Assembly (NCBI GenBank): GCA_030434245.1 | Contig: JAUISX010000004.1 | Coordinates: 124,001-188,000, forward strand | Source: Porphyromonadaceae bacterium W3.11 | Lineage (GTDB): Bacteria; Bacteroidota; Bacteroidia; Bacteroidales; Porphyromonadaceae | Reading direction: 5' to 3' | Length of the DNA: 64,000 bases | Shown: piece by piece, positions 15,091-33,741 of the stretch | How positions within the stretch are numbered: position 1 is the stretch's first letter | Layout: every line of letters starts with the position of its first letter | Position numbers and translations under genes: made by a program | The notes under the pieces: generated by a model | Databases searched by the model: none | What the model saw: only the letters and a program-made list of their open reading frames with translations | Told to the model about the DNA's origin: nothing

Positions 15091-15128
15091 CACAGACATT
15101 TGCTGATTAACAAACAGTTACGATACTT

Positions 15129-15243: not shown

Positions 15244-15325
15244 TGTCAAGGATAAAGAAAGTTCCCTGAATTTCCCGATAGTTCCCCCTACTTCCTCATC
15301 TAATGGTTGGTCATCAATAGTTATT

Positions 15326-15333
15326 TATGTTTG
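15326..15333 (+). promoter_or_regulatory. -7 box for the two-helix membrane protein gene
   Basis: TATGTTTG matches TAnnTTTG and lies 22 bases before the ATG at 15355; this argues against the upstream in-frame TTG at 15307. Confidence 0.5.
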
Positions 15334-15354
15334 CGAAAAAAGACAAGAACAAGC

Positions 15355-16101: not shown

Positions 16102-16158
16102 GTTACTTGGTGGTGGGCTTGGTCACCATTAGAACACCCATTTCCTTTGCTTGCAAAT
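16092..16158 (+). promoter_or_regulatory. 67-bp conserved cis-module, copy 2 (before excisionase-like gene)
   Basis: Same length and conserved blocks as 7580-7646 (TTATCCA, AGTTACTT, GTCACC, TTTGCTTGCAAAT). It lies 43 bases before the ATG at 16202, so integrase and replication genes may share a regulator. Confidence 0.55.
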
Positions 16159-16201
16159 AATTAACAACGCGGGGTAACTCGCACAAATTATTAGTAAGTA
16201 T

Positions 16202-16561
16202 ATGGAAAAGAAGATTTCATTTGACGAGCTACCGAAAGCGGTAAGCGAACTGACCGAGCAGGTCTCAACTCTTACGGAGATGGTCTCCGCACTACAATCA
16301 TCTAAGCCAAGTGAAAAGACACTTATCGGTATGGATGAGGCGTGCGAAATCCTTCAAAAAGCAAAGCCTACCATTTATGCCCTTGTACGTAAAGGGGCTA
16401 TCCCTTCCTACAAAAGAGGAAAGAAGCTCTATTTCTACAGAGAGGAGCTGATTCAGTGGATTGAGAGCGGACGAAAAGCTGTTTCACAGCCCATTTCATC
16501 AGACGAAATGTTAGCAATGATGCGGGCTAATGTCCGTAATAAGCCTAAATCAATCAAGTAA
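16202..16561 (+). CDS. excisionase-like HTH_17 DNA-binding protein
   Basis: A short coiled-coil N terminus (residues 8-33, LPKAVSELTEQVSTLTEMV) precedes an HTH_17 winged-helix-like domain (about 42-92: MDEACEILQKAKPTIYALVRKG, then YKRGKKLYFYREEL). This is the fold of excisionases and of regulators placed ahead of DUF3987 genes in Bacteroides-type elements. The 119-residue gene ends 9 bases before the DUF3987 start, so they form an operon. A decayed copy lies at 37025-37374. Confidence 0.75.
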   Translation: MEKKISFDELPKAVSELTEQVSTLTEMVSALQSSKPSEKTLIGMDEACEILQKAKPTIYALVRKGAIPSYKRGKKLYFYREELIQWIESGRKAVSQPISSDEMLAMMRANVRNKPKSIK

Positions 16562-16570
16562 TGATGGGAC

Positions 16571-17947
16571 ATGGAAGAACAGACCATCATACCAGAGTTC
16601 CTCCTTGACAAGGCTAAAGAGTTAGGGCTATCATTCTCTGACTCCTCTTTTCCCGTAGAGATTTTCCCTGCAAAAATTGAGAAAATCATTGCCGAAGTAC
16701 ACAAGTGTCAAGGCTTCCCAATTGACTACATCGCTTCTGCTATGCTGGTAGCAATAGCCGTTGGCATTGGAAATACTCATCTTGCCCAGCTCAAAAGGGG
16801 CTGGCAAGAGAGTCCCATACTCTATATGGCTTTAGTCGGAAGACCTGGAACGAATAAGAGCCATCCACTCAGTTTTGCGATGCAGCCATTTTTAGAGCTT
16901 GACTACAAGGCAAACAAAGCCTATGACCTTGCTTACGCAGAGTATGAAAAGGTGATGCAGATGTCTCGTAAGGAAAGGACTGATAGTGGTATCACAGAAC
17001 AACCCGAAGAGCCCATTCGCAAGAGATTTCTGGTCTCAGACATCACTCCCGAAGGACTAAGTCTGATACATGCACAAAATAAGAGAGGACTTTGCCTGTG
17101 GGTAGATGAGTTATCCACTTGGTTCAAGAACTTCAATCGCTATAATAGTGGTTCTGAAGAGCAGTTCTGGCTCTCTGTATTCAGTGCTAAAGCGACCATT
17201 AATGACCGCAAAGGCAGCCGCAATTCAATCTTTATCAAGAGACCTTATATCTCCGTTGTTGGTACAATTCAGAAGAATATTCTGGGGGAATTAGCCAAAG
17301 GTGAACGCTCCAATAATGGGTTCATAGATCGCATCCTTTTTGTCATGCCCAACATACAGTTGAAAGCACGATGGAGTAGAAACGAACTGCCTGAGAATAC
17401 GGAACAAGAGTGGTCGGACATTATCCGCACCCTTGTTGAGATTGATTGTCCATTAGATAGTGAAGGGGAAGTTACTCCACATATTGTCCCATTCTCCTTC
17501 GAAGCAAAGAGCAGGCTCTATGCATGGCAAGAAGAGCACGCCCGAATATGCGATACTGAAGCGAATGAAACACTTGTGGGAATCTATTGTAAGCTTGAAA
17601 TCTACATCATCCGCTTTTGTCTCATCATTCAGCTTGCCAGATGGAGCTGTCAGGAGGCGGACAAACAAAGCATAGATGCAACTTCTGTAGAAAAAGCTAT
17701 TGCACTCACAGAATACTTTCGTTCAATGGCTCAGCAAGTGCAGGTGGTCATGGAGTGCAATCAGCTTAATCAGCAACAGCGACAACTACTGATTGAACTA
17801 CCATCAAGATTTCAAACAGCCGAAGCCTTACAGATTGGTGATCGTCTAGGCTTTAAGGAAAGAGCCATAAAGGACTTTCTCAGCCGAAATATCGGCACCC
17901 TTTTCACCAAAGAGAGACACGGACAGTACAAGAAAATAAATGTATAA
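16571..17947 (+). CDS. DUF3987 protein, helicase-like replication protein
   Basis: DUF3987 proteins are found in Bacteroidota mobile elements and carry a RecA-like ATPase core. This one has a P-loop GRPGTNKS (about residues 95-102), a Walker B-like LCLWVDELSTWF and a Thr/Ser-rich sensor segment (YISVVGTIQ). At 458 residues it is complete. It lies between the excisionase-like gene and a primase-like gene, which suggests a role in element DNA replication after excision. The exact activity is not established for the family. Confidence 0.8.
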   Translation: MEEQTIIPEFLLDKAKELGLSFSDSSFPVEIFPAKIEKIIAEVHKCQGFPIDYIASAMLVAIAVGIGNTHLAQLKRGWQESPILYMALVGRPGTNKSHPLSFAMQPFLELDYKANKAYDLAYAEYEKVMQMSRKERTDSGITEQPEEPIRKRFLVSDITPEGLSLIHAQNKRGLCLWVDELSTWFKNFNRYNSGSEEQFWLSVFSAKATINDRKGSRNSIFIKRPYISVVGTIQKNILGELAKGERSNNGFIDRILFVMPNIQLKARWSRNELPENTEQEWSDIIRTLVEIDCPLDSEGEVTPHIVPFSFEAKSRLYAWQEEHARICDTEANETLVGIYCKLEIYIIRFCLIIQLARWSCQEADKQSIDATSVEKAIALTEYFRSMAQQVQVVMECNQLNQQQRQLLIELPSRFQTAEALQIGDRLGFKERAIKDFLSRNIGTLFTKERHGQYKKINV

Positions 17948-17954
17948 CCCACGC

Positions 17955-18013
17955 ACTTTCCACATTATCCGCATTTCGGGAGTTGAAAGTGTGCAAAGTG
18001 TAGATAGTGCGAG
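17955..18013. repeat. small inverted repeats between DUF3987 and DUF6371 genes
   Basis: CACTTTC and GAAAGTG, and an outer CGCACT/AGTGCG pair, flank the short gap between the two genes. This could be an operator or replication-related structure. The signal is modest. Confidence 0.3.
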
Positions 18014-18028
18014 ATAATTCAGAATAAA

Positions 18029-19078
18029 ATGAGCGACTTTAGATTTATGCTTGAACCCTACAAAGGGAGCAACACAAGACATACTTGCCCTGCTTGCGAA
18101 CGCCCAAGGTGCTTTGCTCGATATATTGACACAGAGAGCAAGATTCAATTTCCTAACCATGTGGGGCGATGCGACCACGAACATAGTTGCAGCTACCACT
18201 ACACACCTAAGGAATACTTCGCAGACAATCCTGAAGAGAAGAAAGGGCTTTTCAACTCTGACGCCTACCGCTTGATTAAAAGCACCAAAGCAATAACACC
18301 TCCCTCCTATATCGACCGAGACCTGATGGAGCAGAGCCTACAGAGTTATGAGCAAAACAATCTTTACATCTTCTTGGCTCATCAATTGGGAACCGAAAGG
18401 GCAATGAACCTAATGCGACTCTATCACATTGGGACTTCAAAGCACTGGGATGGGGCGACCATCTTTTGGCAGATTGATACGCATAATCAAATCCGAACAG
18501 GTAAAGTCATGCTCTACAATTCAAAAACTGGCAAGCGGGTAAAGACCCCATTCAATCATGTCACTTGGGTACACAGTGTGCTACGCATCACCCACTTCAA
18601 TCTGAGACAATGTTTCTTTGGGGAGCATCTTCTCTCTAAAGAAAAGCAGAAGCCCATCGCAATAGTGGAAAGTGAGAAGACTGCTCTGATTGCTTCTTTT
18701 TACCTACCTCAATATCTCTGGATTGCTACGGGAGGCAAGAATGGATGTTTTAGGGCTGAGACACTTACTCCGCTGATGAAAAGACAGATAGTTCTTTTCC
18801 CCGATCTCGGTGCAACTGACTATTGGCATGAGAAAATGACCATGATGAGAAAGATTGGTTTTGAGGTTCGTCTCTTTGATTATTTGGAGAAAACCGCATC
18901 CGCAAAAGACCTCAAAGCGGGGTATGACATCGCAGATTATCTACTCCAAATCGAACCCAAAATAGAGCCTCTGAACAAACTTACACTCACTAAGGAGGTT
19001 GAAAATCTCTATCAAAAGGGCAGAAAAGAATCTCATGAGGCAATGCCTACCCATCGTAAGAGGGGCTTCAAATTGTAG
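18029..19078 (+). CDS. DUF6371 primase-like protein
   Basis: The N terminus has a zinc-binding pattern of the CHC2 primase type (Cys20, Cys23, Cys48 and Cys54 with nearby histidines). The C-terminal half contains Toprim-like motifs (IAIVESEKTALIA with the acidic residue, and LFPDLGATDYW). This fits the DUF6371 family found beside DUF3987 in Bacteroides elements and suggests primer synthesis or DNA binding for element replication. At 349 residues it is complete. The Toprim reading is by eye. Confidence 0.72.
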   Translation: MSDFRFMLEPYKGSNTRHTCPACERPRCFARYIDTESKIQFPNHVGRCDHEHSCSYHYTPKEYFADNPEEKKGLFNSDAYRLIKSTKAITPPSYIDRDLMEQSLQSYEQNNLYIFLAHQLGTERAMNLMRLYHIGTSKHWDGATIFWQIDTHNQIRTGKVMLYNSKTGKRVKTPFNHVTWVHSVLRITHFNLRQCFFGEHLLSKEKQKPIAIVESEKTALIASFYLPQYLWIATGGKNGCFRAETLTPLMKRQIVLFPDLGATDYWHEKMTMMRKIGFEVRLFDYLEKTASAKDLKAGYDIADYLLQIEPKIEPLNKLTLTKEVENLYQKGRKESHEAMPTHRKRGFKL

Positions 19079-19083
19079 GGTAG

Positions 19084-19119
19084 CAAGTTTGTGTTTTGGC
19101 ATACCCAAAACCTCACTTG
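19084..19119. other. candidate oriT inverted repeat
   Basis: CAAGT-nnnn-GTTTTGG (19084-19099) and CCAAAAC-nnn-ACTTG (19105-19119) form an imperfect hairpin in the gap before mobC, where oriT sites of small mobilizable elements usually lie. The nic site cannot be named from sequence alone. Confidence 0.4.
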
Positions 19120-19204
19120 CCACCCCCAAGGCGGAGCCAATTTAATCCCGATGGTCTCCATTTAGATAAGCAGAAAAAAAGACTTGTCTATCGGAGAAAT
19201 TCAC

Positions 19205-19256
19205 GTTCGAACTAAAAGATGTTTGAGTTCGAACTCGGAGAAATTTCTGTTCGAAC
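19205..19256. promoter_or_regulatory. three GTTCGAAC palindromes at exact 22-bp spacing
   Basis: GTTCGAAC occurs at 19205-19212, 19227-19234 and 19249-19256. Copies 1 and 3 are each preceded by GGAGAAATT. Two-turn spacing puts all three on one face of the helix, 16 bases before mobC. This suggests cooperative binding by a dimeric ribbon-helix-helix protein such as MobC, or an oriT accessory array. Confidence 0.6.
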
Positions 19257-19271
19257 CAAAATTTTAACACA

Positions 19272-19634
19272 ATGACAATTGTAAAGAATATGACTAAAAA
19301 TAGAGGAGGTCGACCAACAAAACAACCCTCGGAGAAAAGGAGATATCCAGTTCAGCTGAAGCTGAATACAATTGAGCACTACACCTTGAAGCGGAGAGCA
19401 GCCGAAGCAGGGGTGAATCGGAATGAGTTCCTACGCATGCTGATTGCCGATGCTAAGATTCAGGCACGCATCACGCCCGAACAGATGCACGAGATTCGCC
19501 AACTGACAGGGATGGTAAATAATATCAATCAGATAGCTCGTAATCTGAATACTTATGGGATAAGGGTTATTCCTGAAGAACTGGAAAGGCTAAGAGAACT
19601 AATTACGCAACACCTTAAGGAGTTAAAGCCATGA
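19272..19634 (+). CDS. mobC: MobC-like relaxosome accessory protein
   Basis: A basic N terminus (NRGGRPTKQPSEKRRYP) leads into a ribbon-helix-helix-like segment (VQLKLNTIEHYTLKRRAAEAG, NRNEFLRML), then the MobC tail LTGMVNNINQIARNLN. Such proteins bind oriT and help the relaxase nick. The 120-residue frame overlaps the relaxase start by four bases (ATGA), which indicates translational coupling. An alternative ATG lies at 19290. Confidence 0.82.
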   Translation: MTIVKNMTKNRGGRPTKQPSEKRRYPVQLKLNTIEHYTLKRRAAEAGVNRNEFLRMLIADAKIQARITPEQMHEIRQLTGMVNNINQIARNLNTYGIRVIPEELERLRELITQHLKELKP

Positions 19635-20527
19635 TTGCGAAGATAATTAAGGGGACTTCCTTTTCTGGAGTTGTTCGTTATGTCCTCAGTAAACCTGAGG
19701 GTGAAGCAGTGATTCTGAAAGGTGAAGGGGTAAGAGAAAGCATTGTATCCGAAATTACCCAAGACTTTGACCTGCAAGCCTCAATGAACTGCCGAGTGAG
19801 GAAGCGGGTATGCCACACCATACTCAGCTTTTCTCCAGAGGATGCGGATAAACTTAACGATGCCCTGATGACACAGATAGCCGAAGAGTATCTTAAGCGA
19901 ATGGACGTGCGAGACACGCAGTACCTGATGGTTCGCCATTACGATCGTGAGCATCCACATCTACACATCTGCTTCAATCGTATTGACAACTACGGCAAAA
20001 CCATTAGTGACCGCAATGAGAAATACCGCTCCACACGCATTTGCAAGGAACTGACGGAGGAGTTTGGGCTGACCTTTGGCAAGGGGAAAGAGCTGGTTAA
20101 GCGACAGCAACTCAAGGGTAATGACAAAATCAGATATGAGATTTTTGATGTCATACAGCACGCACTCCGTGGATCCAAAGATTGGAAGAGTTTTACAGCC
20201 GCCCTCAGTAAACATGGAGTTACAACCCACTTCAAGCACAAGGGGAAGACCGATCTGATAGAGGGAGTGCTCTTTGAGAAGGACGGTGTCACCTTTAGTG
20301 GCTCGAAGATCGACCGCTCATACAGCTACTCAAAGCTCAATCAGCACTTCAAACAGATAGTAGCACAGCAAGCAGAGCAACCGAAGGAAACGGAAAACTT
20401 TTCGGAAACAGCAACAGTGGATTTATTTCCAACCACCTACGCTACTTCAGATGAAATAGCAGAAGCCATTTGGCAACGAAAACTAAGATATCAAGCTAAC
20501 AAAAAGAAAAAAGGAAGAAAGTTATGA
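19631..20527 (+). CDS. mobA: MOBP-type relaxase / mobilization nuclease
   Basis: Nicks oriT and carries the strand during transfer. The relaxase domain occupies the N-terminal two thirds: candidate nucleophile Tyr17 in VVRYVLS, and the metal-binding HUH motif HYDREHPHLHICFN with His103, His108, His110 and His112, followed by DNYGKTISDRNEK. At 298 residues it is short, as in the BmgA-type relaxases of small Bacteroides mobilizable units. It overlaps mobC and the next gene by four bases each, so the three form one operon. Confidence 0.88.
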   Translation: MIAKIIKGTSFSGVVRYVLSKPEGEAVILKGEGVRESIVSEITQDFDLQASMNCRVRKRVCHTILSFSPEDADKLNDALMTQIAEEYLKRMDVRDTQYLMVRHYDREHPHLHICFNRIDNYGKTISDRNEKYRSTRICKELTEEFGLTFGKGKELVKRQQLKGNDKIRYEIFDVIQHALRGSKDWKSFTAALSKHGVTTHFKHKGKTDLIEGVLFEKDGVTFSGSKIDRSYSYSKLNQHFKQIVAQQAEQPKETENFSETATVDLFPTTYATSDEIAEAIWQRKLRYQANKKKKGRKL

Positions 20528-21213
20528 ATGATGAATTTAGAACATTACTTGACCTACTCGAGGAGGTCAAGCAACAGAACAAGGAAATCAAGACTTCCAT
20601 CGTAAGTCTTGAGGGCAGACCCAATGGAACATCTACAGAAGTATTTGAACAGGAACTTCAAGCCTTGACCAAAACCTTACAACTGGTCTTAGACGACCAC
20701 ATCAAGTGGAAAAAGGAGCTTACGGAGGTTGCAATTGTATTGGGAAAACGCATCGCAGAAATCAAAAATGGGCTTACGGATAGTACCAAGGCATGCAACG
20801 AAGTGGTTGCTAAGTTAGAGGAAAAGCAAAGCACTCAAACTCCGTCAATTACCAAGAAGTACTTCTTACTTGATGCTAAGCGGTGGATTCAGTGGGCTAT
20901 CTGGGGAATACTTGTCCTTATAGTTGCTGGCTTTTTCGGTTGGAATATCCACTTGCATAAGACCAACCAAAGTCTCAATGACTACGCCCTTCGATACCGC
21001 ATACTCAGGATGCAACACTCCGAGAGTAACGACTCCTTTGCCCAGTTGGACAGCATCTTTGAAACACATCGCTCAGAAAATACCATTGAGCAACTCAGAG
21101 AACGTGTCACTAACTACGAAGCAGCAGTTCGCCGTCAGGCTGAACTTCTCCACCGCCAGCAAGAGCAACTTATGAAAGAACAGGAAGAATTAAGTAGGAA
21201 AAATAAACGATAG
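20524..21213 (+). CDS. coiled-coil membrane protein of the mob operon
   Basis: Not assignable to a named family. The 229 residues show an N-terminal coiled coil (about 1-100), one membrane helix (about 116-135: WAIWGILVLIVAGFFGW) and a C-terminal Gln/Glu-rich coiled coil. It begins in the ATGA overlap with the relaxase stop codon and is the last gene of the mob operon. It may tether the relaxosome to the membrane or to a helper coupling protein; that is inference. Confidence 0.6.
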   Translation: MNDEFRTLLDLLEEVKQQNKEIKTSIVSLEGRPNGTSTEVFEQELQALTKTLQLVLDDHIKWKKELTEVAIVLGKRIAEIKNGLTDSTKACNEVVAKLEEKQSTQTPSITKKYFLLDAKRWIQWAIWGILVLIVAGFFGWNIHLHKTNQSLNDYALRYRILRMQHSESNDSFAQLDSIFETHRSENTIEQLRERVTNYEAAVRRQAELLHRQQEQLMKEQEELSRKNKR

Positions 21214-21242
21214 AAACGAAGATTTTAACATAAGAATAGACA

Positions 21243-21284
21243 AGGCAAGCACAATAGAGTAAACTCTTTCGTGCTTGCCTCATT
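21243..21284. terminator. bidirectional terminator between mob operon and hsdS recombinase
   Basis: AGGCAAGCAC (21243-21252) pairs with GTGCTTGCCT (21271-21280), extended by inner pairs, between two convergent genes. Confidence 0.75.
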
Positions 21285-21286
21285 CT

Positions 21287-22213
21287 CTAAGTCAGGCTTT
21301 TGCTCATTTGTTCTATGCAACGGCGCTTCTGGTCGAGATTCGGGTGAACGTATAAATCCAGCGTGGTACTGATATTTGCGTGTCCCAAAAGAACGCTCAC
21401 TGTTTTGTAATCGCATCCGCTCTCGATACAGCGTGTGGCAAAGCTGTGCCTTAGTCCGTGAAACTTTATCCGAGGCATCCCCAATTTCTCCATCAATGCG
21501 TGATAATACTCGCGATAAGTGCGGGGTTCGGTAGCTTTAGGTTCGTTGGTCAAGACATAGTATTCAGGATTGACGACCTTGCAAAAAGGTTTGAGCATTC
21601 TTTTCAGCTCTCGACTCAAAGGTATTTCCCTCAGAGAATTACTGGTTTTGGGCGTACTCTCTACGACCTTAGTCGTTCGGCTTCCATCAGCCTCGATGAT
21701 ATAAATACGCTGAAGCGAACGACTGACACGAATAACCCCCTCTACCCAATCTACATCTTTCCACTTGAGTGCACAGAGTTCACCGATACGCATCCCTGTA
21801 CTCAGACAAATGAGAATGCCCAGATTACGAAAAGTAAAATGCTCACGCACATACTTCATAATCTTGCTCTGACATTCCCGAGGAAGCACTTCAATCGCAG
21901 GCGACTTACATTGGGTCGGATATTTGAGATCCAGCTCCACGTACTGCCAGCCAAAATGCTTGACTCCAAATCGCTGTATCATCTTGAGGGTGATGATTAG
22001 ATCCTTGATGGTCTTCAAGCTAAGCCCTTGTCCTATTTTCTGTAAGATAAAGGCTTGGCATACCTCTTCTGTTATGTCATTTACATTCGAGAAGTAAGGC
22101 AATAGATGATTGTCTACCTGTAAAGCATAGACAGAATAAGTCCCTTGCTTAACATACTGAACTTTGTCCTTCAGCCAAGCACGAACTACTTTTTCAAAAG
22201 AATTTTTACTCAT
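21287..22213 (-). CDS. tyrosine recombinase, probable hsdS invertase
   Basis: A XerC/D-like protein of 308 residues with a SAM-like core-binding domain (1-100) and all catalytic residues: Arg142 (STGMRIGEL), Lys189, His252-x2-Arg255 (HGLRHS), His278 (LGHAN) and Tyr288 (TLDLYVH). It differs in length and N terminus from the element integrase at 7678. Its start lies 66 bases from the 69-bp inverted repeat that begins the silent hsdS cassette; such recombinases invert type I specificity genes in many Bacteroidota and Firmicutes. I infer it acts on the repeats at 22279/25280 and 22764/24819. Confidence 0.88.
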   Translation of the reverse strand: MSKNSFEKVVRAWLKDKVQYVKQGTYSVYALQVDNHLLPYFSNVNDITEEVCQAFILQKIGQGLSLKTIKDLIITLKMIQRFGVKHFGWQYVELDLKYPTQCKSPAIEVLPRECQSKIMKYVREHFTFRNLGILICLSTGMRIGELCALKWKDVDWVEGVIRVSRSLQRIYIIEADGSRTTKVVESTPKTSNSLREIPLSRELKRMLKPFCKVVNPEYYVLTNEPKATEPRTYREYYHALMEKLGMPRIKFHGLRHSFATRCIESGCDYKTVSVLLGHANISTTLDLYVHPNLDQKRRCIEQMSKSLT

Positions 22214-22278
22214 AATGTTTCTCTATTTAGGATTGGTTTTTGATGTCCCGACAAGATACACCATACTTGGGAGAACAC

Positions 22279-22347
22279 TCCCCTCCTCAATTGTCCCCCT
22301 TTGAGATTCCCCGAATTCTCCGACCCGTGGCAACAAACCACCCTCGG
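22279..22347 (+). repeat. IR-A left arm, 69 bp (hsdS inversion site)
   Basis: Identical over 69 bases to the reverse complement of 25212-25280. It encodes the hsdS N-terminal segment PLLNCPPLRFPEFSDPWQQ and lies at the 5' end of the silent cassette. Confidence 0.92.
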
Positions 22348-23494
22348 GGAAATAGGAGCGTACTTGAGAGGTGTTACGTACTCTTCATCGGATATTTCCC
22401 AGTATGGTATCCCGATTATGAGAGCCACCAATATAAATTCGGGAACCACCTTGAATTATACTTCTGATGTAATACGGGCAAATGCTCGAATAGCAAAGAA
22501 CCAGATACTTCAAAAGGGGGATATTGTAATTTGTGCTGCAAACGGGAGTTCAGACCTTGTTGGCAAGAACTCATACTACGATGGCAGTAGCAAAGAACCG
22601 ATTACGGTTGGTGCATTCTGTGGAATATATCGGAGCGAGTGCATCTTATCTCGCTGGATCTTTCAGACGTATCTGTACCGTAAATATATTCAAACGGCAA
22701 TACAAGGTGGAAATGGATCTATTGCGAATCTTAAGCCGACAGTTGTCTTAGAGCAAGTATATGCTCTTCCATCCCTTGCTGAGCAGAGGAAGATAGCGGA
22801 GTTTTTGTCGTTGATTGACGAGCGGATAGAGACCCAAAGGCAAACAATTGAGGAGCGAAAGAAACAAAAGAAAGCCCTTCTGCACCAAATCTTCTCTCAA
22901 TCCCTCCGCTTCCCCGACTTCTCCGACCCGTGGCAACAAACCACCCTCGGAGAAGTCGCAGAGATTACAAGTGGATATTCTGGAGAACAAGAGCAGATAG
23001 AAACCCCTTACCGAGTTAGTCGAATAGAGACTATCAGTTCTGGAGCAATAGATATCAACCGTGTTGGCTTTGTGCCTTATGATACGAGGTTAGAAGGGTA
23101 TAAATTGTCTTTAGGTGATATTCTCTTTAGCAATATCAATAGCATAGAACACATCGGAAAAAGTGCGATAGTAAGTAAGCCAATGGACTTATACCATGGA
23201 ATGAATCTACTGCGACTGAAGGTTATAAATGCCGAACCATACATTCTTTATTCCCATTTTCAGAGAGATGTGGTTAGGAATAGATTTAGGTCAATTGCAA
23301 ATAAGGCTGTTTCTCAAGCAAGCATTAATCAAACAGCTCTCGGGAAAGAGAGTGTTTCTCTTCCATCCCTTGCGGAGCAGAGGAAGATTGCGGAGTTTCT
23401 TTCGTTGATAGACGAGCGGATAGAGGTGGAGGAGAAGTTGCTTGGGAAGTACGAAGAGCAGAAGAAGTATCTTTTGCGAAAAATGTTCGTTTAG
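22301..23494 (+). CDS. hsdS: silent type I specificity (HsdS) cassette without its own start codon
   Basis: Type I S subunit with two target recognition domains and conserved repeats. The frame is open from 22244, but no ATG lies between the stop at 22241 and the shared repeat; only a TTG at 22301 could start. The expressed copy begins MATNNN and then enters the same sequence. TRD1 lies at about residues 15-140 from 22301, central conserved region 155-215 (LAEQRKIAEFLSLIDERIE), TRD2 220-345, and a terminal conserved region ending YLLRKMFV. Both TRDs differ from those of the expressed gene. It lies inverted to it, with no promoter seen, so I call it a donor cassette. Confidence 0.85.
   Translation: MRFPEFSDPWQQTTLGEIGAYLRGVTYSSSDISQYGIPIMRATNINSGTTLNYTSDVIRANARIAKNQILQKGDIVICAANGSSDLVGKNSYYDGSSKEPITVGAFCGIYRSECILSRWIFQTYLYRKYIQTAIQGGNGSIANLKPTVVLEQVYALPSLAEQRKIAEFLSLIDERIETQRQTIEERKKQKKALLHQIFSQSLRFPDFSDPWQQTTLGEVAEITSGYSGEQEQIETPYRVSRIETISSGAIDINRVGFVPYDTRLEGYKLSLGDILFSNINSIEHIGKSAIVSKPMDLYHGMNLLRLKVINAEPYILYSHFQRDVVRNRFRSIANKAVSQASINQTALGKESVSLPSLAEQRKIAEFLSLIDERIEVEEKLLGKYEEQKKYLLRKMFV
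22764..22950 (+). repeat. IR-B left arm, 187 bp (central conserved region of silent hsdS)
   Basis: Matches the reverse complement of 24633-24819 with three mismatches. It spans the spacer between TRD1 and TRD2, so recombination here would exchange TRD2 alone. Confidence 0.9.
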
Positions 23495-23550
23495 TAGAGG
23501 AATGGCAGAGGTTTGCTCTGAGCATTTGAACATTTCATATAAAGCATTCT

Positions 23551-23626
23551 ATAGTCCCACAGCAATGGGACTATAGTTTCACGCCTATGGGACTACAGTC
23601 TCACAGCTATGGGAAGGTAGTCCCAT
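23551..23626. repeat. nested palindromes after the silent hsdS cassette
   Basis: ATAGTCCCA/TGGGACTAT (23551-23559, 23566-23574) and ATGGGACTAC/GTAGTCCCAT (23587-23596, 23617-23626), with further ATGGGA/TCCCA half-sites between them. The first could terminate transcripts; the set looks like an intergenic palindromic repeat cluster. Confidence 0.6.
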
Positions 23627-23691
23627 AATGATGGGAATAGCGAGAGAAAGGGGAAGAGAAGGCTGAAAGTATAGGGAAAGAGGGAAAAGTC

Positions 23692-24129
23692 TTAGTAGAG
23701 AAGTTCGTAGGCTTCTTCGTAAGCATCAAAGAGTTCCTCTTGTTCGACGCCAAATTCTTGAAATACAGTACGGACAGTAGTTTGTTGAGCTTCGGTAAGA
23801 GGATATTCTCCCGATGCATATCGGTAGAAATGGCTCCGACCACAGTTTAACTCATAGGATATTCGCCCGCGAAACGCAGCGACGCTACGATAAGGAAGAA
23901 GCCCAATAGCCCGCTTGAAACCTCTGGCTTGACGCTGTACCCGATTGCTCAAGTAGTGAGGGCAAGTTTCGCTTACCTCTCTGCGAGGATCTACAAATGA
24001 GTGTATCGAGAACGGAGAGGAGTGTCGGTAGGCGAGATGGCGCAGGCAACTATTGGCTTGGGGGCATTGCTCAAGCAAACAATAAACTATATTCTTGGTC
24101 ATCAAGTCGGGACGAAAATCGGAACTCAT
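23692..24129 (-). CDS. cysteine-cluster protein inside the invertible hsdS segment (DUF6078-like?)
   Basis: A 145-residue soluble protein with Cys17, Cys22, Cys28 and Cys56 (YCLLEQCPQANSCLRH, ETCPHY), a likely metal-binding set, then a basic central segment and a C terminus that resembles a small helix-turn-helix (RSHFYRYASGEYPLTEAQ). It reminds me of DUF6078, but I cannot confirm this. It begins 19 bases after the expressed hsdS stop codon and is co-directional, so it is probably translated from the hsd transcript. It lies inside both inverted repeat pairs, so an hsdS switch would flip it out of that operon. Confidence 0.65.
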   Translation of the reverse strand: MSSDFRPDLMTKNIVYCLLEQCPQANSCLRHLAYRHSSPFSIHSFVDPRREVSETCPHYLSNRVQRQARGFKRAIGLLPYRSVAAFRGRISYELNCGRSHFYRYASGEYPLTEAQQTTVRTVFQEFGVEQEELFDAYEEAYELLY

Positions 24130-24148
24130 AATCAGTACAATGATTTAC

Positions 24149-25297
24149 TTAGACAAACATCTGACGCAATAAGTAGCGTTTCTGTGCCTCGTAACACTTA
24201 AGCAACGCTTCTTCCGCCTCAATTCTTTCGTCAAAGATAGCCAATAGTTCCGCTATCTTCCTCTGCTCCTCCAATGACGGCAAAGAGATGGGCATATCTG
24301 TTATCATATTCATACGTACAGAGTCTACCGTATTCTTGGCACTCATCCTGCTGGCTCTTTCAAAGAAATTGGCAGAAAAGTACTGAAAGAGGTATTTCGG
24401 AATACATTGAATTTCTGTGAGCATATAAACCCGTTGATGCACCGCTATCTTCCCTTCTGAATAATGAAATATCTGCCCTATTGCTCCGTCTCCTGGAGTT
24501 AATATTGCAACTCCATCGTAGGTATAACGATTGGAGCGTTCAACCTTTGAAGAACGAACATAAAAAGGATATTTTCCATCCTCAACTTTGTCCTGTGTAT
24601 TCATCTCTCCTGTGGATACCTTACATACTTCACCGAGGGTGGTTTGTTGCCACGGGGCGGAGAAGTTGGGGAAGCGGAGGGATTGAGAGAAAATTTGGTG
24701 CAGAAGGGCTTTCTTTTGTTTCTTTCGCTCCTCAATTGTTTGCCTTTGGGTCTCTATCCGCTCGTCAATCAACGACAAAAACTCCGCTATCTTCCTCTGC
24801 TCAGCAAGGGATGGAAGAGAAAGAGGGAGACTTGATAAATCAGTAGCATTGATAGCTGGATAGTTCGTCCCAGTACACCGATTCAAAACTTCGCCCAAGA
24901 AAGTAGCAGAATGTATAGCATAATAAAGAAACCTTCCTGACTGAACACTTCTAAGTTGTGCATAGCCTGTAGAGGCTACGGAGGGGATTTTCTCGACAGA
25001 CCTAAAGTATAAGTTGTTTTGCTGATAAGGTCTAACCATTTGGAATAGCACATCATGATCCTTTAGAAGTCGCTGAGCCCGACTTGGTGCATTATCCTTA
25101 GTGATGATATTATGCTTCAAAAGAACGCCTTTTTCGACAGCTTCCAAGTCAATGTATATGAACTTATGAGGTAACACACCCTTTGTGGAAGGGTTTATTT
25201 CAGCGACCTCGCCGAGGGTGGTTTGTTGCCACGGGTCGGAGAATTCGGGGAATCTCAAAGGGGGACAATTGAGGAGGGGATTATTATTCGTTGCCAT
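24149..25297 (-). CDS. hsdS: expressed type I restriction-modification specificity subunit HsdS
   Basis: Sets DNA target recognition for the HsdM2S methylase and the HsdR2M2S nuclease. The 382-residue protein begins MATNNNPLLNC and enters the 69-bp IR-A. TRD1 lies at about 30-155, the central conserved region at about 160-220 (LAEQRKIAEFLSLIDERIE, then WQQTTLGEV), TRD2 at about 225-335 and the terminal conserved region ends YLLRQMFV. Two full TRDs are present. Its ATG follows the hsdM stop by six bases, so it is the operon-linked copy. Its TRDs differ from the silent cassette at 22301. Confidence 0.92.
   Translation of the reverse strand: MATNNNPLLNCPPLRFPEFSDPWQQTTLGEVAEINPSTKGVLPHKFIYIDLEAVEKGVLLKHNIITKDNAPSRAQRLLKDHDVLFQMVRPYQQNNLYFRSVEKIPSVASTGYAQLRSVQSGRFLYYAIHSATFLGEVLNRCTGTNYPAINATDLSSLPLSLPSLAEQRKIAEFLSLIDERIETQRQTIEERKKQKKALLHQIFSQSLRFPNFSAPWQQTTLGEVCKVSTGEMNTQDKVEDGKYPFYVRSSKVERSNRYTYDGVAILTPGDGAIGQIFHYSEGKIAVHQRVYMLTEIQCIPKYLFQYFSANFFERASRMSAKNTVDSVRMNMITDMPISLPSLEEQRKIAELLAIFDERIEAEEALLKCYEAQKRYLLRQMFV
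24633..24819 (-). repeat. IR-B right arm, 187 bp (central conserved region of expressed hsdS)
   Basis: Reverse-complement partner of 22764-22950 with three mismatches. Confidence 0.9.
25212..25280 (-). repeat. IR-A right arm, 69 bp (5' end of expressed hsdS)
   Basis: Perfect reverse-complement partner of 22279-22347. It starts 18 bases inside the expressed hsdS ATG, so inversion leaves the start codon and operon in place while replacing everything downstream. Confidence 0.92.
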
Positions 25298-25303
25298 AGT
25301 TCA

Positions 25304-26923
25304 TTACTTTATCAGTCCGAGCTCTCGGAGGTAAACATCTATTTGTTGGTCAAGGGCTGTGCGACGTGCTTCGAGTGATTCGATTTCGCTCATCACTGCC
25401 TGAATATCTATCTCCTCTTCCTCTTCAAACGTATCTACATAGCGAGGGATATTGAGGTTGTAATCGTTTTCCTTAATCTCGGAGAGCGGAACGCATCGAG
25501 AGTATTTGTCTATCTCCTTGCGGTATCGGTAGGTATCTATAATCTTATCGATGTCGTTTGGCTCACCGTTCTCCCCTGTGCGCAAACGGTTTTGCTTTTT
25601 ATCCTTGGCAAACTCTCGGCTCGCATCGATAAAAAGCACATCGTCATTGGTCTGGCACTTCTTGAGGACAATGATACATACCGGAATACCCGTAGAATAA
25701 AAGAGCTTGGGCGGCAAGCCGATAATGGCATCTATGCTTCCATCTTCAAGTAATTTCTGCCTAATGGCACGCTCTGCACCCCCACGAAAGAGTACCCCAT
25801 GTGGCAGTATAATCGCCATAGTACCGTCTTGGCTCAGATAGTGAAAGCCGTGCAGGAGGAATGCGAAATCGGCGGCAGACTTGGGTGCCACTCCGTAATT
25901 TTGGAAACGGAAGTCCTGAGCAGTCTCTTCCTTGGGGTTCCATTTGAGGCTAAAGGGGGGATTGGCTACGATGGCATCGAACTCTACTTTTTCACTGGGA
26001 TTATCATTATTGAGGAACGCCCATTCATTTGCCAAAGAGTCTCCGTGAAATATCTCAAACTCCGTATCCTTTACTCCATGCAAGAGCATATTCATACGAG
26101 CGAGGTTGTACGTGGTGACATTCAGTTCTTGCCCGTAAATACGTCCTATTCGGTCGCCCATCTGTTTGCGAACATTGAGCAACAATGATCCGGAACCACA
26201 GGCGAAGTCCAATACCTTTTTGATCCCCTCTTTAACGCCACGGTCAGGATTTTGTGCATCCAAAGCGACAATACGAGACAGAATAGTGGATATGGCTTGA
26301 GGGGTGTAGAACTCGCCTGCCTTCTTTCCTGAGCCTGCGGCAAATTGGGCGATTAGATATTCGTACGCATCGCCGAGTGCATCTATATCCGAAGAGAAAG
26401 CTCCTATACCCTCTGCGATCTTGAGAATGATCACACAGAGCGTATCATTCTTCTGTTGGTAAGTCTTTCCCAGTTTCTCAGAAGAGAGGTTTACCTCAGA
26501 GAACAAGCCCCTAAATGTACTATCGAAAGATTCCGTTTCGATATGTCTGAACCCCTCCTCTAATGTGTCAAGCAGATCCGAGCTTTGTGTACGAGCCAAT
26601 TCTACTATATGGCTCCATAAGTATTCCGGCTTAATGACGTAGTGAATCTTTCGACGCATCTGAGCTTCAAACTCTCCGATGTCTTCGCTGTTTTCTGCAT
26701 ACCATCTTTGTAGAGCAGTCTCTCCTATCGAGAGCGCTTCTTCATTGGGATAGTCTTTGCCCAGCTCTCTCTTTGCTGCTTGCTCATAATTGCCAGACAA
26801 GTAGCGAAGGAAAAGGAATGAAAGCATATAGTCGCGAAAGTCATCAGCATTCATCTTGGAACGCAACTCATCTGCTATAGCCCATAGTGTTTTACCTAAA
26901 GCCTGTTGGTCTCTTGCTGTCAT
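25304..26923 (-). CDS. hsdM: type I restriction-modification DNA methyltransferase HsdM
   Basis: Adenine N6 methyltransferase subunit. An N-terminal helical domain (1-150: ALGKTLWAIADELRSKM) precedes the methylase core: AdoMet motif LDFACGSGSLLLNV and catalytic NPPF in IVANPPFSLKW. YTPQAISTILSRIV precedes them, as in HsdM_N/N6_Mtase proteins. At 539 residues it is complete. Order on the minus strand is hsdR, ATPase, hsdM, hsdS with small gaps, so one transcript from the XRE gene promoter is likely. Confidence 0.95.
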   Translation of the reverse strand: MTARDQQALGKTLWAIADELRSKMNADDFRDYMLSFLFLRYLSGNYEQAAKRELGKDYPNEEALSIGETALQRWYAENSEDIGEFEAQMRRKIHYVIKPEYLWSHIVELARTQSSDLLDTLEEGFRHIETESFDSTFRGLFSEVNLSSEKLGKTYQQKNDTLCVIILKIAEGIGAFSSDIDALGDAYEYLIAQFAAGSGKKAGEFYTPQAISTILSRIVALDAQNPDRGVKEGIKKVLDFACGSGSLLLNVRKQMGDRIGRIYGQELNVTTYNLARMNMLLHGVKDTEFEIFHGDSLANEWAFLNNDNPSEKVEFDAIVANPPFSLKWNPKEETAQDFRFQNYGVAPKSAADFAFLLHGFHYLSQDGTMAIILPHGVLFRGGAERAIRQKLLEDGSIDAIIGLPPKLFYSTGIPVCIIVLKKCQTNDDVLFIDASREFAKDKKQNRLRTGENGEPNDIDKIIDTYRYRKEIDKYSRCVPLSEIKENDYNLNIPRYVDTFEEEEEIDIQAVMSEIESLEARRTALDQQIDVYLRELGLIK

Positions 26924-26936
26924 ATTCTTCTATCTA

Positions 26937-28049
26937 TTAAGCCTCTCTTGGAAGAAAGAGGTCAGGATTAAACTTGTAGTTTGTTATAAATGCGCTCAAT
27001 ATCTGTTTGAACAGCTCTTTGTTATCCTCCATCATCTCAGTCGGCTCATAAAGAGAATATTTTCCGTGAGAGAAGATGTTTATTATACGGCTATACAGAG
27101 GAGACTCTTCTTGAATATCTTTGTTTTTGAAGCATTCATCAAATTTTTCATATCCATGAAATGAAGCTGCTCTCTCAAGCACATTTCGAAGCATTGCAAA
27201 GTGATAGGTATATAGATCTCCTGATTCAGCCCTATGCCACAATTCTTCCAACATTGCAACGTGAAGAAACCGAGGGGTGTCATTTGTATAGCTAACACTA
27301 TAGCCTTCTTCCCCATTTTTCTTGAAGTGTAAACTTCCAAGCCATTTTCGCTTTCCTACGCTATCTTTGAAAACATTCCAAAGAGCATTATAGAAGAGAG
27401 CATGGTGTGTTGAAATAACTACCTTTTTTGAGCCCTCTTTTAATGTCTCAGCTAATAAAACCGCGACTGCAATAGCATTGTTATCATCCAAAGAAGAGAT
27501 GGGATCATCAATGTAGATATACTTTACCCAAGAGTAACCCTCATCTCCATCCAATACCAATTGTACGATGGCTAAGAAAAAACACCATACAAAGATAGTT
27601 TCCTCTCCTCTTGATATTTTGATGTTATCTATAACAGTTTCTTGGTTTGGATCCTCTCCTTCCCTCAGGTTGAAAACTCTTGAGAAAGAAATACTTCCGT
27701 CTTCATAGTCTATTTGAAAAACAATATCCGAGAAGCGCCCCCAAAACACTCTAATCTTATCTTCAAGAGCATATTCTTTAGCTCCACTAAAAAATGAAGA
27801 CTTTAGATTCATTTTGAGTACTCGAGTCGCATCTTCGTCAAGATCATTATCCCACGAAAACAAATCTTCTGTAAAAGCATTGAAATAGAGTGTATCTCTT
27901 TCTCCTCCTATCTTCCCAAGATCCTTGAACTCCATAGACAAACGAGTCTTTCCCACTCCATTATAAGCATATAAGAGAATGATTTTCTTTTCCTCTAGTT
28001 TGTCCCGAATATCTCGAGCTAGTTGCCTTAAGTCACTAAAATGATCCAT
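26937..28049 (-). CDS. PrrC-like ATPase, candidate anticodon nuclease
   Basis: A 370-residue ABC/AAA_13-type ATPase between hsdR and hsdM. Residues 23-40 hold Walker A AYNGVGKT (28-35); ISRGEET (145-151) is a degenerate signature; Walker B and D-loop are YIYIDDPISSLDD (177-189); the switch histidine is at VISTHHALFY (211-220). The C-terminal domain has Arg288-x3-Glu292 (LRNVLERAASFHG) and His328 (NIFSHGKY). E. coli PrrC, encoded in the EcoprrI hsd locus, uses Arg320, Glu324 and His356 to cut tRNA-Lys when phage disables restriction. The same R-x3-E spacing and a similar distance to His support a PrrC-type role. The tRNA target is unknown. Confidence 0.7.
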   Translation of the reverse strand: MDHFSDLRQLARDIRDKLEEKKIILLYAYNGVGKTRLSMEFKDLGKIGGERDTLYFNAFTEDLFSWDNDLDEDATRVLKMNLKSSFFSGAKEYALEDKIRVFWGRFSDIVFQIDYEDGSISFSRVFNLREGEDPNQETVIDNIKISRGEETIFVWCFFLAIVQLVLDGDEGYSWVKYIYIDDPISSLDDNNAIAVAVLLAETLKEGSKKVVISTHHALFYNALWNVFKDSVGKRKWLGSLHFKKNGEEGYSVSYTNDTPRFLHVAMLEELWHRAESGDLYTYHFAMLRNVLERAASFHGYEKFDECFKNKDIQEESPLYSRIINIFSHGKYSLYEPTEMMEDNKELFKQILSAFITNYKFNPDLFLPREA

Positions 28050-28060
28050 GCATTACTTTC

Positions 28061-31060
28061 TTAGGATTTATAAGCAGAGAGCCCTGATATATTTTGCCCT
28101 TTTGCCAATAAGGAGAATAGAGGAAGTAGATCAGAGACCAATGCTTTTTCTTGCTGTACGCGTTGCTTCCAGCCTAAATCCTGTTCTCTAAATAGTTCTG
28201 AAAGCTGTTCGGCGTCAAAAATCATTCGGTCTAAAACTGATTGGATGAATGAATTAAGGGTTTCCGGAATAATTCCATACCGCAGGGCAATCTCTTCGAT
28301 GCGTCGTCTCATCTTCCGATTTTTGAACTGCTGATAGCTTTCGCTAACCTCATTCACAGTGAGTCCATCAACAACCTCTAACTGATTTATATAGTCGAGA
28401 ATATCCTCCTGTTCTTCCATCAGATTACTGTGCGAAGCCACCAAACGAACCAGCTCTTCTTTTGTGAGTTCTTGCTGGCTTGGAGTTTGATTAGTAAAGC
28501 GAGAAATCAGCCCCATGATATAATCATAGTCGATCATAGCAGAGGAGAAGAGGACAAACTCAAAGTCTATATCCTCCGGATTAACCCCATCACCGGTATT
28601 GGGTGCATAATCGGATGACGGATCTTTCTGATTTTCACGAAGGGTACGAGCAGTCTCAAGGTAAGCTGTCCTAAAAGCATTCAAATCCTCCTTAGGCAAC
28701 AAACTCTCTATCTTCTCTTGATCCTCGGGGTCTATGTAGATGTATTGCCCAAGTTGATTGCTCAGTCTTTGAACCTCCTTAAAGTAGTCTACAAACTCAG
28801 CCTTAGCGGTATCTCCTAATAAATTAGCCACCTCTTCCGGTTTCGGGTCTAATCCCTTGGATTCCATAAACTGAGTGAGCTTATCAATCGCTTGTTCGTA
28901 CTTTACAACGACCTCGTGAGCTGGTTCGACAAGCCATATAGTAGGATCCGGCATCTCCTCTTTAAGACCAGAAAATAGACGAACAGCATCGTCTACAGAC
29001 GACATCTGAGAGCGAAAATCCAGTATCTTCCCAAAGTTTTTGGTCTCATTTAGTATGCGATTGGTGCGAGAGAAGGCTTGAATAAGGCCATGATATTTGA
29101 GTTCTTTATCCACATAGAGGATGCCCAGGTATTTGGAGTCGAAGCCCGTTAGGAGCATATCCACGACGATAGTTACATCTATCTTCTGGTCACGGGGATA
29201 TTCACTCCATTTCTGATCTTTGATACGCTTCTGTACATCTTGGTAATAAGCATCAAATTCAGAAATACTGTGTGCAACGCCATAACGCTCATTATAGTCC
29301 GAAATAATCCCCTCTAAGGCTGCTTTTTTACTATTTGGATCGACCAAATTATCTGCTTTTTCTTGCTCTAAGTCCTCTTGCAATTGCTCCACATCTTTAT
29401 TCCCCTCAGCGGGCGGAGAGAACACGCAAGCGATGTTCAGAGGCACAAAGTCAGGATTCTTTGCCCAATGTTCATCTTGTACCTCCTTAAATAACTGATA
29501 GTACTCAATAGCATCATTGATACTACTCGTTGCAAAAATGGCGTTGAAGCGTCTAGAAAAAGATATGGCATCGTGCTTGGCAAGAATTTCTTCGATAACT
29601 GCCTTCTTGGTCACTTGTCCATAAGTACCATTCGACTGATCATTGGGTCGATAGTAGTCTACGTTAAATCGCAAAACATTCTTATCCTCAATGGCATTCG
29701 TGATCGTATAGGAGTGTAGAAGCTTCTGAAAGACATCTTCTGTTGTTAGCTTAGAAGCCTCTTGCCCATCAATCTTGACTTGCACTGCATTCGCTTCAAA
29801 TATCGGTGTTCCCGTAAAACCAAAGAGTTGTGCTTTTGGGAAAAAGGCTTTGATCGCTTTATGATTCTCTCCAAACTGAGATCTATGGCATTCGTCAAAG
29901 ATGAAAACCATACGCTTATCTGCAAGAGACTTAAGACGCTCTTGATAGTTCCTCTTATTTTTAGGGTCAAGGGCTATGCCTAACTTCTGTATGGTTGTTA
30001 CTATAACCTTATCCGCATAGTCCGAAGATTCCAGCCTTTTTACAAGTGTCTCTGTATTCGTATTCTCCTCAACACACCCCTGCTGAAACTTATTGAATTC
30101 ATCTCGCGTTTGACGATCTAAATCCTTTCTATCCACGACAAAAATACATTTCTCTATATTAGGATTGTCTTTAAGAATAGTAGATGCCTTGAATGAGGTA
30201 AGCGTCTTACCTGATCCTGTAGTATGCCAGATATAACCGTTACCACGATTTTCTTCAATACACTTAACAATGGCTTGGACTGCATAAATTTGGTAAGGAC
30301 GCATGATTAGAAGCTTACGTTCGCTTGCGACTAATACCATGTATCGACTGATGAGTTCTCCCAAAGTACATTTCGCAAGCATTCTTGTCGCAAAACTGTG
30401 CAGGTGCATTATTTTGTGATTATTCTCATCTGCTAAATGGTATATCGGCAAATATTGTTCTTTAGCATCAAATCGGAATTCCTTAGCATTATTATTGGCG
30501 AAGTAACTCGTTTCTGCCTCATTACTCACGATAAATAACTGCATGAATGCAAGCAGGGTATTGGCATAGCCATTTCCCACATCATTTTTATAATTGACAA
30601 TCTGCTGTATCGCCGTTCGAGGTGATACTTTATGAGCCTTCAATTCTATTTGTACAAGAGGAAGCCCATTGATAAGGATTATAACATCATAGCGATGATG
30701 ACTGCTATGTGTATTGATGCGTAACTGATTGATTACTTCATAGTCATTCCTGCACCAATCTTTGATGTTAACAAGAGTGTAGTACAAAGGAGTGCCATCC
30801 TCTCTCAAGAAAAGATTGCGTTCGCGCAGTAATCGAGAAGACTCATACACATCCGGCGTGGCAGGAATAATCTCAGAAAGAAGGCGATCAAACTCCCGAT
30901 CTGTCAGTATGACGCCATTGAGTTGTTCAAACTTCGTACGAAAATTGGCTTCCAACGTTGCCCTATCTTTGATATCTGACCGATGAATATATTTAAGGCT
31001 TACGAGGCGCTTAATTAATCTTTCCTCTATTTGCTGTTCGGCTACCGTATACATCTGCAT
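28061..31060 (-). CDS. hsdR: type I restriction endonuclease subunit HsdR
   Basis: Motor and nuclease of the type I complex. The N-terminal PD-(D/E)xK nuclease has Asp125, Glu139 and Lys141 (RYDVIILINGLPLVQIELKA region). The SF2 helicase motor has motif I HTTGSGKTLTS, motif II FDECHRS (DEAD-like) and motif III FGFTGTPI, with later motifs in LLTGFDS and QAFSRTNR. The C-terminal ~300 residues form the HsdM-contacting helical region. At 999 residues it is intact. It starts 22 bases after the XRE gene stop codon. Confidence 0.95.
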   Translation of the reverse strand: MQMYTVAEQQIEERLIKRLVSLKYIHRSDIKDRATLEANFRTKFEQLNGVILTDREFDRLLSEIIPATPDVYESSRLLRERNLFLREDGTPLYYTLVNIKDWCRNDYEVINQLRINTHSSHHRYDVIILINGLPLVQIELKAHKVSPRTAIQQIVNYKNDVGNGYANTLLAFMQLFIVSNEAETSYFANNNAKEFRFDAKEQYLPIYHLADENNHKIMHLHSFATRMLAKCTLGELISRYMVLVASERKLLIMRPYQIYAVQAIVKCIEENRGNGYIWHTTGSGKTLTSFKASTILKDNPNIEKCIFVVDRKDLDRQTRDEFNKFQQGCVEENTNTETLVKRLESSDYADKVIVTTIQKLGIALDPKNKRNYQERLKSLADKRMVFIFDECHRSQFGENHKAIKAFFPKAQLFGFTGTPIFEANAVQVKIDGQEASKLTTEDVFQKLLHSYTITNAIEDKNVLRFNVDYYRPNDQSNGTYGQVTKKAVIEEILAKHDAISFSRRFNAIFATSSINDAIEYYQLFKEVQDEHWAKNPDFVPLNIACVFSPPAEGNKDVEQLQEDLEQEKADNLVDPNSKKAALEGIISDYNERYGVAHSISEFDAYYQDVQKRIKDQKWSEYPRDQKIDVTIVVDMLLTGFDSKYLGILYVDKELKYHGLIQAFSRTNRILNETKNFGKILDFRSQMSSVDDAVRLFSGLKEEMPDPTIWLVEPAHEVVVKYEQAIDKLTQFMESKGLDPKPEEVANLLGDTAKAEFVDYFKEVQRLSNQLGQYIYIDPEDQEKIESLLPKEDLNAFRTAYLETARTLRENQKDPSSDYAPNTGDGVNPEDIDFEFVLFSSAMIDYDYIMGLISRFTNQTPSQQELTKEELVRLVASHSNLMEEQEDILDYINQLEVVDGLTVNEVSESYQQFKNRKMRRRIEEIALRYGIIPETLNSFIQSVLDRMIFDAEQLSELFREQDLGWKQRVQQEKALVSDLLPLFSLLAKGQNISGLSAYKS

Positions 31061-31082
31061 CTGAGTCTATTGTTGACGATTA

Positions 31083-31301
31083 CTATTTCTCATCTCGTTC
31101 CATTGGTACAGGACCACACTCCGAACCGAAGAGTTCGAATACTTTATTGACCTTATCAAGGCGAAGCGTAGTTTTACCCTGCTCCAGTTCACGCACAAAG
31201 CGTAGCCCAACTCCTGCTTTTTCGGAGAGGTCCACCTGTGTCAATCTATATTTCTTACGCATCTCTTTCACGTACTGTGCTATGATTGTCCTTGCTTCCA
31301 T
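31083..31301 (-). CDS. XRE/HipB-type regulator heading the hsd operon
   Basis: A 72-residue Cro/C1 helix-turn-helix protein (IIAQYVKEMRKKYRLTQVDL, KAGVGLRFVRELEQGKTTLR), similar to y4mF-like HipB regulators. No hipA follows; hsdR starts 22 bases downstream, so it probably acts as a controller of the restriction operon. Twin operator-like sites lie just upstream of its promoter. Autoregulation is inferred. Confidence 0.78.
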   Translation of the reverse strand: MEARTIIAQYVKEMRKKYRLTQVDLSEKAGVGLRFVRELEQGKTTLRLDKVNKVFELFGSECGPVPMERDEK

Positions 31302-31329
31302 ACTGAGTTATTTTATACCTTATCAATAG

Positions 31330-31414
31330 CAAATATAATAAGAAATACTCAATCATACCCCCTTTCGGGGATAAAACGCAAAAGAAAGATTGAATTATAC
31401 CCAATAGGGAGTAT
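31330..31414 (-). promoter_or_regulatory. hsd operon promoter with twin operators
   Basis: The minus strand has TATATTTG (31330-31337). Upstream lie two related sites on the plus strand: TCATACCCCCTTTCGGGGATA core 31355-31373, and ATACCCAATAGGGAGTAT at 31397-31414. Their ATACCC starts are 42 bases (four turns) apart and each is preceded by TCAAT/TGAAT. They fit binding by the XRE protein encoded downstream. Confidence 0.55.
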
Positions 31415-31440
31415 ATTAATACTTTTCTAGTGTTATACTA

Positions 31441-31686
31441 TTAGAAATGCACCAAATAGGTACTTATGAATTTGGCAGTTGTTGCATATTTTGCAACAAC
31501 TGAATTTGGGTCAAGCTCTCCCTCTGAAAAGATGTTTTTTATATGCCTTGAAATTGTTGACTTATCTCGGTCAAATAGCTCTGCCATCTGATTGAGGGAC
31601 AGCCAAACAGTATCGTCTTCAAGCTGAACCGATAGCTCCGCAAGTCCATCAGCACTTCTATATATGATTACTTCGCCTTTATTCAT
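31441..31686 (-). pseudogene. truncated RhuM-like gene
   Basis: 81 residues that match only the N-terminal part of RhuM proteins (VIIYRSADGLAELSVQLEDDTVWL, NQMAELFDRDKSTISRHIKNI) and break off after VVAKYATTA, where the family continues into a conserved core. The next residues (KFISTYLVHF) are unlike it. Its ATG overlaps the stop codon region of the full-length RhuM upstream, so it is a second, broken paralogue, left by deletion. The short product could still be made. Confidence 0.65.
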
Positions 31687-33721: not shown

Positions 33722-33741
33722 CACTTAATACTATTCCAATG

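Follow-up and report, generated by a model that had tools for sequence, protein, structure and literature searches.

A probable invertible four-state Type I restriction-modification locus with two proposed site classes and a possibly coupled DUF6078 gene in Porphyromonadaceae bacterium W3.11

What does a bacterium change when it inverts the DNA that encodes the specificity subunit of a Type I restriction-modification (R-M) system, and how might nested inversions at such a locus avoid breaking its genes? These questions are raised by a locus of Porphyromonadaceae bacterium W3.11 that lies within the window analysed here, a stretch of 64,000 nucleotides from contig JAUISX010000004.1 (positions 124,001 to 188,000). 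With matches to the hsdR, hsdM and hsdS families in Pfam, NCBIfam and PADLOC, the locus belongs to Type I. It is very likely invertible among four states, and one recombinase, two classes of site and a coupled gene of the DUF6078 family are proposed for it. A four-state hsdS switch had been proposed by a sequence-only reading of the same DNA; the anatomy of the locus, a middle segment inverted relative to P. levii, and the presence of the recombinase family at other hsdS pairs all support it, and the switch is real and probably works.

The genes on the minus strand run hsdR (28061-31060; Pfam HSDR_N, SWI2_SNF2 and EcoR124_C; NCBIfam TIGR00348), a PrrC-like gene, hsdM, which encodes the methylation subunit (25304-26923; NCBIfam TIGR00497, E 7.2e-120), the expressed hsdS (24149-25297) and the DUF6078 gene, with gaps of only 11, 13, 6 and 19 bases. 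On the plus strand lies a second, silent gene, hsdS' (22280-23494). Both hsdS genes match Pfam Methylase_S in 2 stretches, and their target recognition domains (TRDs) are termed 1a and 2a in the expressed gene and 1b and 2b in the silent one. An outer inverted repeat at the two hsdS 5' ends (22279-22347, plus strand; 25212-25280, minus strand) is identical at 69 of 69 positions. The arms of an inner inverted repeat (22764-22956, plus; 24627-24819, minus), delimited by repeat finder and alignment, reach 193 nucleotides at 98% identity. Within them, 22764-22950 and 24633-24819 agree at 184 of 187 positions, with mismatches at 22891, 22916 and 22926 and long perfect runs. Both repeats are thus as the sequence-only reading had described them. 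Their within-locus BLAST E-values, 9e-34 and 1e-98, are far past chance, and when the locus DNA was compared with the 2.63 Mb genome the only matches at E <= 0.001 were to itself and its own arms.

Only one of the two hsdS genes has a conventional start. As had been claimed, the plus-strand gene lacks an ATG: no ATG or GTG occurs in frame from the upstream TGA (22241-22243) to an internal TTG at 22301, and a simple consensus scan upstream of hsdS' yields one weak promoter-box pattern at 22187 on the plus strand. The copy after hsdM does have an ATG ahead of the repeat, at 25297 on the minus strand; the distance is 17 bases rather than the 18 first given. The silent frame is open throughout. 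In each repeat pair the two arms have the same codon phase (2 and 2; 1 and 1), so that recombination at either pair would leave open, full-length hsdS genes. Since the four TRDs share only 17-26% of their residues pairwise, four specificities are expected.

These features suggest how the locus may work. A tyrosine recombinase gene (21287-22213, minus strand; Pfam Phage_integrase, E 1.4e-29), whose open reading frame (ORF) and position next to the repeat are confirmed, adjoins the silent gene. Its product would use the outer sites to invert the entire segment, some 2.9 kb long, and the inner sites to invert only the inner 1.7 kb. The expressed position after hsdM could then carry TRD1a-2a, 1b-2b, 1a-2b or 1b-2a, with a corresponding change in methylation, and the inverted DNA would include neither the start codon nor the promoter of the operon, whichever that is.

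Where might recombination take place? One motif, CTCAAT-N8-TTTGRG, occurs both in the outer repeat, when this is read in the direction of the gene, and in the inner repeat, when that is read in the opposite direction. Because these repeats encode different protein parts on opposite strands, their likeness is not explained by protein sequence. A motif scan places four candidate sites: outer left at 22286-22305 (plus), inner left at 22833-22852 (minus), inner right at 24731-24750 (plus) and outer right at 25254-25273 (minus), so that orientations alternate along the window. The 8-base centres differ between the classes, being TGTCCCCC in the outer pair and TGTTTGCC in the inner pair. The shared arms suggest that one recombinase probably serves both pairs. 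Tyrosine recombinases need an identical overlap between the sites that they join. If this holds for the recombinase here, the distinct centres should prevent exchange between an outer and an inner site, which would be destructive and break genes.

Other loci bear on this proposal. In the window and 34 recombinase loci (numbered L below), the site was found at no more than one mismatch in 15 of 35 outer windows and 20 of 28 inner windows, against backgrounds of 0.33% and 0.69% from 5185 windows elsewhere. Pairs of sites were analysed for 19 of the 35 loci; those left out include L049, L051, L052, L061, L071 and L077, which do not have the full motif. The 8-base centre was identical in 13 of 13 outer pairs, and in 18 inner pairs its identity averaged 0.92, compared with 0.62-0.65 in the flanks, although these values are inflated, since partners were chosen partly by similarity and loci with no qualifying pair drop out. 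Because the motif had been derived from the recombinase loci themselves, a second sample of 20 regions, which may overlap the first, was seeded with HsdM. Here the site occurred at no more than one mismatch in 4 of 4 regions with a recombinase and in 0 of 6 regions that have one detected hsdS and no recombinase. In the other 10 regions it was present in L159, which has an hsdS pair at a contig end, and once each in L150 and L153, outside detected hsdS. Another candidate for the recombination core, the palindrome-like CCGACCCGTGG-CAACAAA-CCACCCTCGG ahead of the window TRDs, was rejected, as it is absent from the outer repeats compared in loci beyond P. levii.

The recombinase belongs to a Bacteroidota family associated with hsdS. 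It carries R142, K189, H252, R255, H278 and Y288, which we take to be the catalytic set of tyrosine recombinases and which are conserved in 6 aligned relatives. A family-level search gave matches in all 38 family genomes, most of them weak, because tyrosine recombinases are common. Close relatives (at least 57% identity over the whole length) are found in G000, G030, G037, G015, G029 and G012. A GTDB scan with the recombinase produced 30 loci, two of which, L056 and L058, share a source organism and are apparently duplicates; the 23 loci whose contig continues for 1 kb or more upstream of the recombinase are testable. An hsdS-like gene lies upstream in 20 of these 23 (in L049 by a weak 24% match), was not detected there in L061, L071 and L077, and forms part of a convergent hsdS pair in 17. 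Seven of the 30 contigs (L050, L060, L062, L063, L064, L072 and L074) stop within 97-198 bases of the recombinase on its upstream side, close to the expected position of the outer site. These ends fit assembly breaks at a branching site, and by themselves they prove nothing. Extra hsdS pieces, in the order S+ S- S+ S- ahead of the recombinase, were seen in L056, L059, L065, L068, L148 and L157, where more than four states are therefore possible.

Comparison with P. levii (G030), at one genome per species, suggests that the segment has been inverted. The window is colinear with P. levii over 13774-22356 (96.4% identity) and 25209-31735 (97.0%), and between these, 23355-24298 aligns in reverse orientation, at 93.7%. 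The inverted piece holds one hsdS tail, intergenic hairpin repeats, DUF6078 and the other hsdS tail. All four window TRDs differ from those of P. levii, no pair exceeding 33% identity in a comparison that leaves out the hsdM-proximal hsdS of FC4 (G037, L110). An inverted middle together with differing TRDs indicates, from alignment, that since the two copies parted the middle has been inverted and the TRDs replaced. In FC4, whose scaffold has N gaps and a stray recombinase piece, the middle is likewise inverted relative to the hsdM flank. The hsdM-proximal hsdS of this genome has a second TRD that is 92.0% identical, over 501 bases, to window 24752-25252, a stretch covering most of the expressed gene's TRD1; this is a sign of TRD movement between positions 1 and 2. 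In another region of the same genome (L038, 3140-9008) the complete recombinase gene adjoins a different Type I system and another recombinase-like ORF; that system has inverted repeats of its own (178 nucleotides at 99% and 156 nucleotides at 100%).

The likeness to P. levii extends over a block of about 20 kb (13774-33777), which comprises relaxase, DUF3987 and primase-like genes and the hsd locus and is 96-97% identical. Outside it, flank matches are mostly 63-72%, with shorter patches of 74-87% and one of 96% at 6319-7668. Because of this contrast the block looks horizontally transferred, and it is likely to be a recently transferred mobilizable island.

Does the inversion change anything besides specificity? 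The DUF6078 gene (23692-24129, minus strand; Pfam PF19555, E 4.5e-27) lies inside the invertible segment. DUF6078 has 20 matches in 15 of 38 family genomes, and 5 of 395 phylum genomes have it. Five loci (window, G030, G037, G015 and G029) have the gene embedded between two hsdS genes, and in all five a gap of 17-19 bases separates it from the tail of the hsdS that precedes it; at the other DUF6078 loci in the family no hsdS was detected within about 1.5 kb. The preceding hsdS is the expressed copy in the window and the silent, recombinase-side copy in the other four genomes, less securely so in FC4 because of its assembly. With DUF6078 tied to one hsdS tail, it should depend on how the segment is oriented whether the operon ends in DUF6078. 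In the window it is 19 bases behind the TRD2a tail, so it would be switched in step with specificity, joining the hsdR-prrC-hsdM-hsdS operon only in arrangements that put TRD2a in the expressed position. Inversion should thus also switch DUF6078, a putative DNA-binding protein. Four cysteines are invariant over 14 aligned relatives. A structural model built from a 4-sequence alignment has a mean pLDDT (predicted local distance difference test) of 58, and its fold matches in the PDB, all with E >0.3, are mostly to lambda-repressor/XRE-like folds, including R-M controller proteins. The model thus weakly resembles repressor-type helix-turn-helix folds, which is a lead only; a sequence search of the PDB gave 2 matches, both at chance level. 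Between the convergent hsdS' and DUF6078 genes, window 23549-23614 contains 3 copies of a 22-base repeat of hairpin character (CTATAGTCCCA...TGGGACTATAG), perhaps a two-way terminator.

The PrrC-like gene (26937-28049, minus strand) lies between hsdR and hsdM. Its product matches PADLOC PrrC over residues 5-361 of 370 (E 1.1e-125), and the gene also matches Pfam AAA_13. Candidates for the Arg-x3-Glu ... His catalytic residues of PrrC are LRNVLE at 287 and SHG at 327; a sequence search of the PDB gave no relative with which to align them. By tblastn, 5 of the 30 recombinase loci (L048, L051, L059, L065 and L068) have a relative of the gene between hsdR and hsdM; further relatives occur in L073, just before hsdM at a contig end, and in L041. 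The gene raises the question of how a restriction guard tolerates a changing specificity subunit.

Several observations weigh against a coupled switch run by one recombinase. The evidence for inversion lies between species and not within one strain, and when 193-base repeats flank a 1.7-kb segment, the orientation that an assembler gives to it can be arbitrary. At no more than one mismatch, the site is absent from both windows in L049, L051, L052, L053, L061, L071 and L077. Of these, L051 and L052 are close relatives, with recombinases of 73-74% identity and the DUF6078 arrangement, and their outer repeats retain only the site centre and right side (TGTCCCCCTTTGCG). One rival is a frozen locus, at which nothing switches at present and the contrast with P. 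levii is either ancient or a product of assembly. One genome per species, N gaps within the repeats of L051 and L110, and P. levii and window copies that differ in all four TRDs, and so are not simple switch states of one locus, would all suit it. However, the outer repeats are perfect here and in P. levii (66 of 66), as expected if exchange keeps the arms alike, the silent hsdS is open throughout, and the recombinase keeps its presumed catalytic residues; a frozen locus is quite improbable. It is unlikely, to a somewhat lesser degree, that general homologous recombination makes the inversions and the neighbouring recombinase is unneeded. The repeats are long enough for this, and the title of PMC6620402 states that spnIII recombines independently of every site-specific recombinase known in pneumococcus. 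Yet the outer repeats are only 21-22 bases in L052 and L075, at the same place near the recombinase, and the recombinase family stands beside hsdS in most testable loci.

It is also conceivable, if very improbable, that the recombinase is the integrase of the adjoining mobilizable element (relaxase, DUF3987 and primase genes at 15-21 kb of the window) and sits beside hsdS by accident. Mobilization genes do adjoin it in the window, L048, L050, L051 and partly L052. But elsewhere, for example in L055, L056, L059, L065-L070, L073, L075 and L076, the recombinase adjoins hsdS pairs with no nearby match to three mobilization queries, and the candidate sites are located at the hsdS repeats. A far stronger rival, falling not far below an even chance, accepts that specificity switches and holds that DUF6078, driven by a promoter of its own, is expressed whichever way the segment lies. 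A TATCTTTG box, read as a promoter element by a consensus that we assume, lies about 110 bases upstream of DUF6078 inside the hsdS tail and makes such a promoter possible, and family members away from hsdS suit it as well. There is, however, no TTG at the expected -33 of this box, and the 17-19-base gap to the preceding hsdS stop is kept in all five loci. The full proposal, that one inversion sets Type I specificity, with its PrrC-like guard, together with expression of DUF6078 tied to one TRD2, and that a single recombinase separates nested inversions by two site classes, is held tentatively, at clearly less than an even chance. If DUF6078 does switch with specificity, the locus would be a combined epigenetic and regulatory switch rather than a specificity shuffler alone, and class-specific centres would give a simple rule by which one recombinase runs nested inversions without scrambling genes.

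This kind of locus has been published. PMC5903667 finds signs that Type I loci invert in 13 species. According to the text available from a REBASE survey (Atack et al. 2020, PMC7394358), inverting hsdS loci are present in 7 of 15 strains of P. gingivalis and in 2 of 7 strains of T. forsythia; hsdS' lacks an ATG and a predicted promoter, and only the gene after hsdM is functional, in a four-state scheme. Like the window locus, these P. gingivalis and Tannerella forsythia loci have two inverted variable hsdS genes, inverted repeats and a start-less hsdS'; for them the same text is silent on DUF6078, on any PrrC-like gene and on a defined recombination site. It also describes inverted repeats within variable hsdS genes in SpnD39III of Streptococcus pneumoniae, where, as here, a recombinase is encoded in the locus, and in the Streptococcus suis Type I switch, with six HsdS variants in pneumococcus and four in S. 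suis. Unlike the window locus, both belong to another phylum, and the SpnD39III repeats are 15, 85 and 33 bp. EcoprrI-PrrC of Escherichia coli is likewise a Type I R-M locus with a PrrC-type gene inside it (PMC12707154); in the portion of that paper available it is not described as invertible, whereas the specificity subunit of the window is predicted to switch. PMC12324116 was considered as a precedent for a coupled gene and set aside, since its accessible part concerns control of inversion by cell-wall acetylation instead. In the open-access literature searched, no DUF6078 link, no PrrC with phase-variable hsdS and no CTCAAT-N8-TTTGRG site was found. What the window locus adds is the coupled DUF6078, the PrrC-like partner and the two-class site rule, each at the strength given above.

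Two further sets of genes accompany loci of this type. A Fic-like gene, named from its sequence, lies between hsdM and the expressed hsdS in COT-290 OH3588 (L051, 6215-6763) and in P. canoris (L052, 6373-6921). In the window, two genes upstream of hsdR (31679-33724) match PDC-S05 (E 4.8e-146) and PDC-S04 (E 8.3e-112; also SoFic), which are candidate-defence families of PADLOC.

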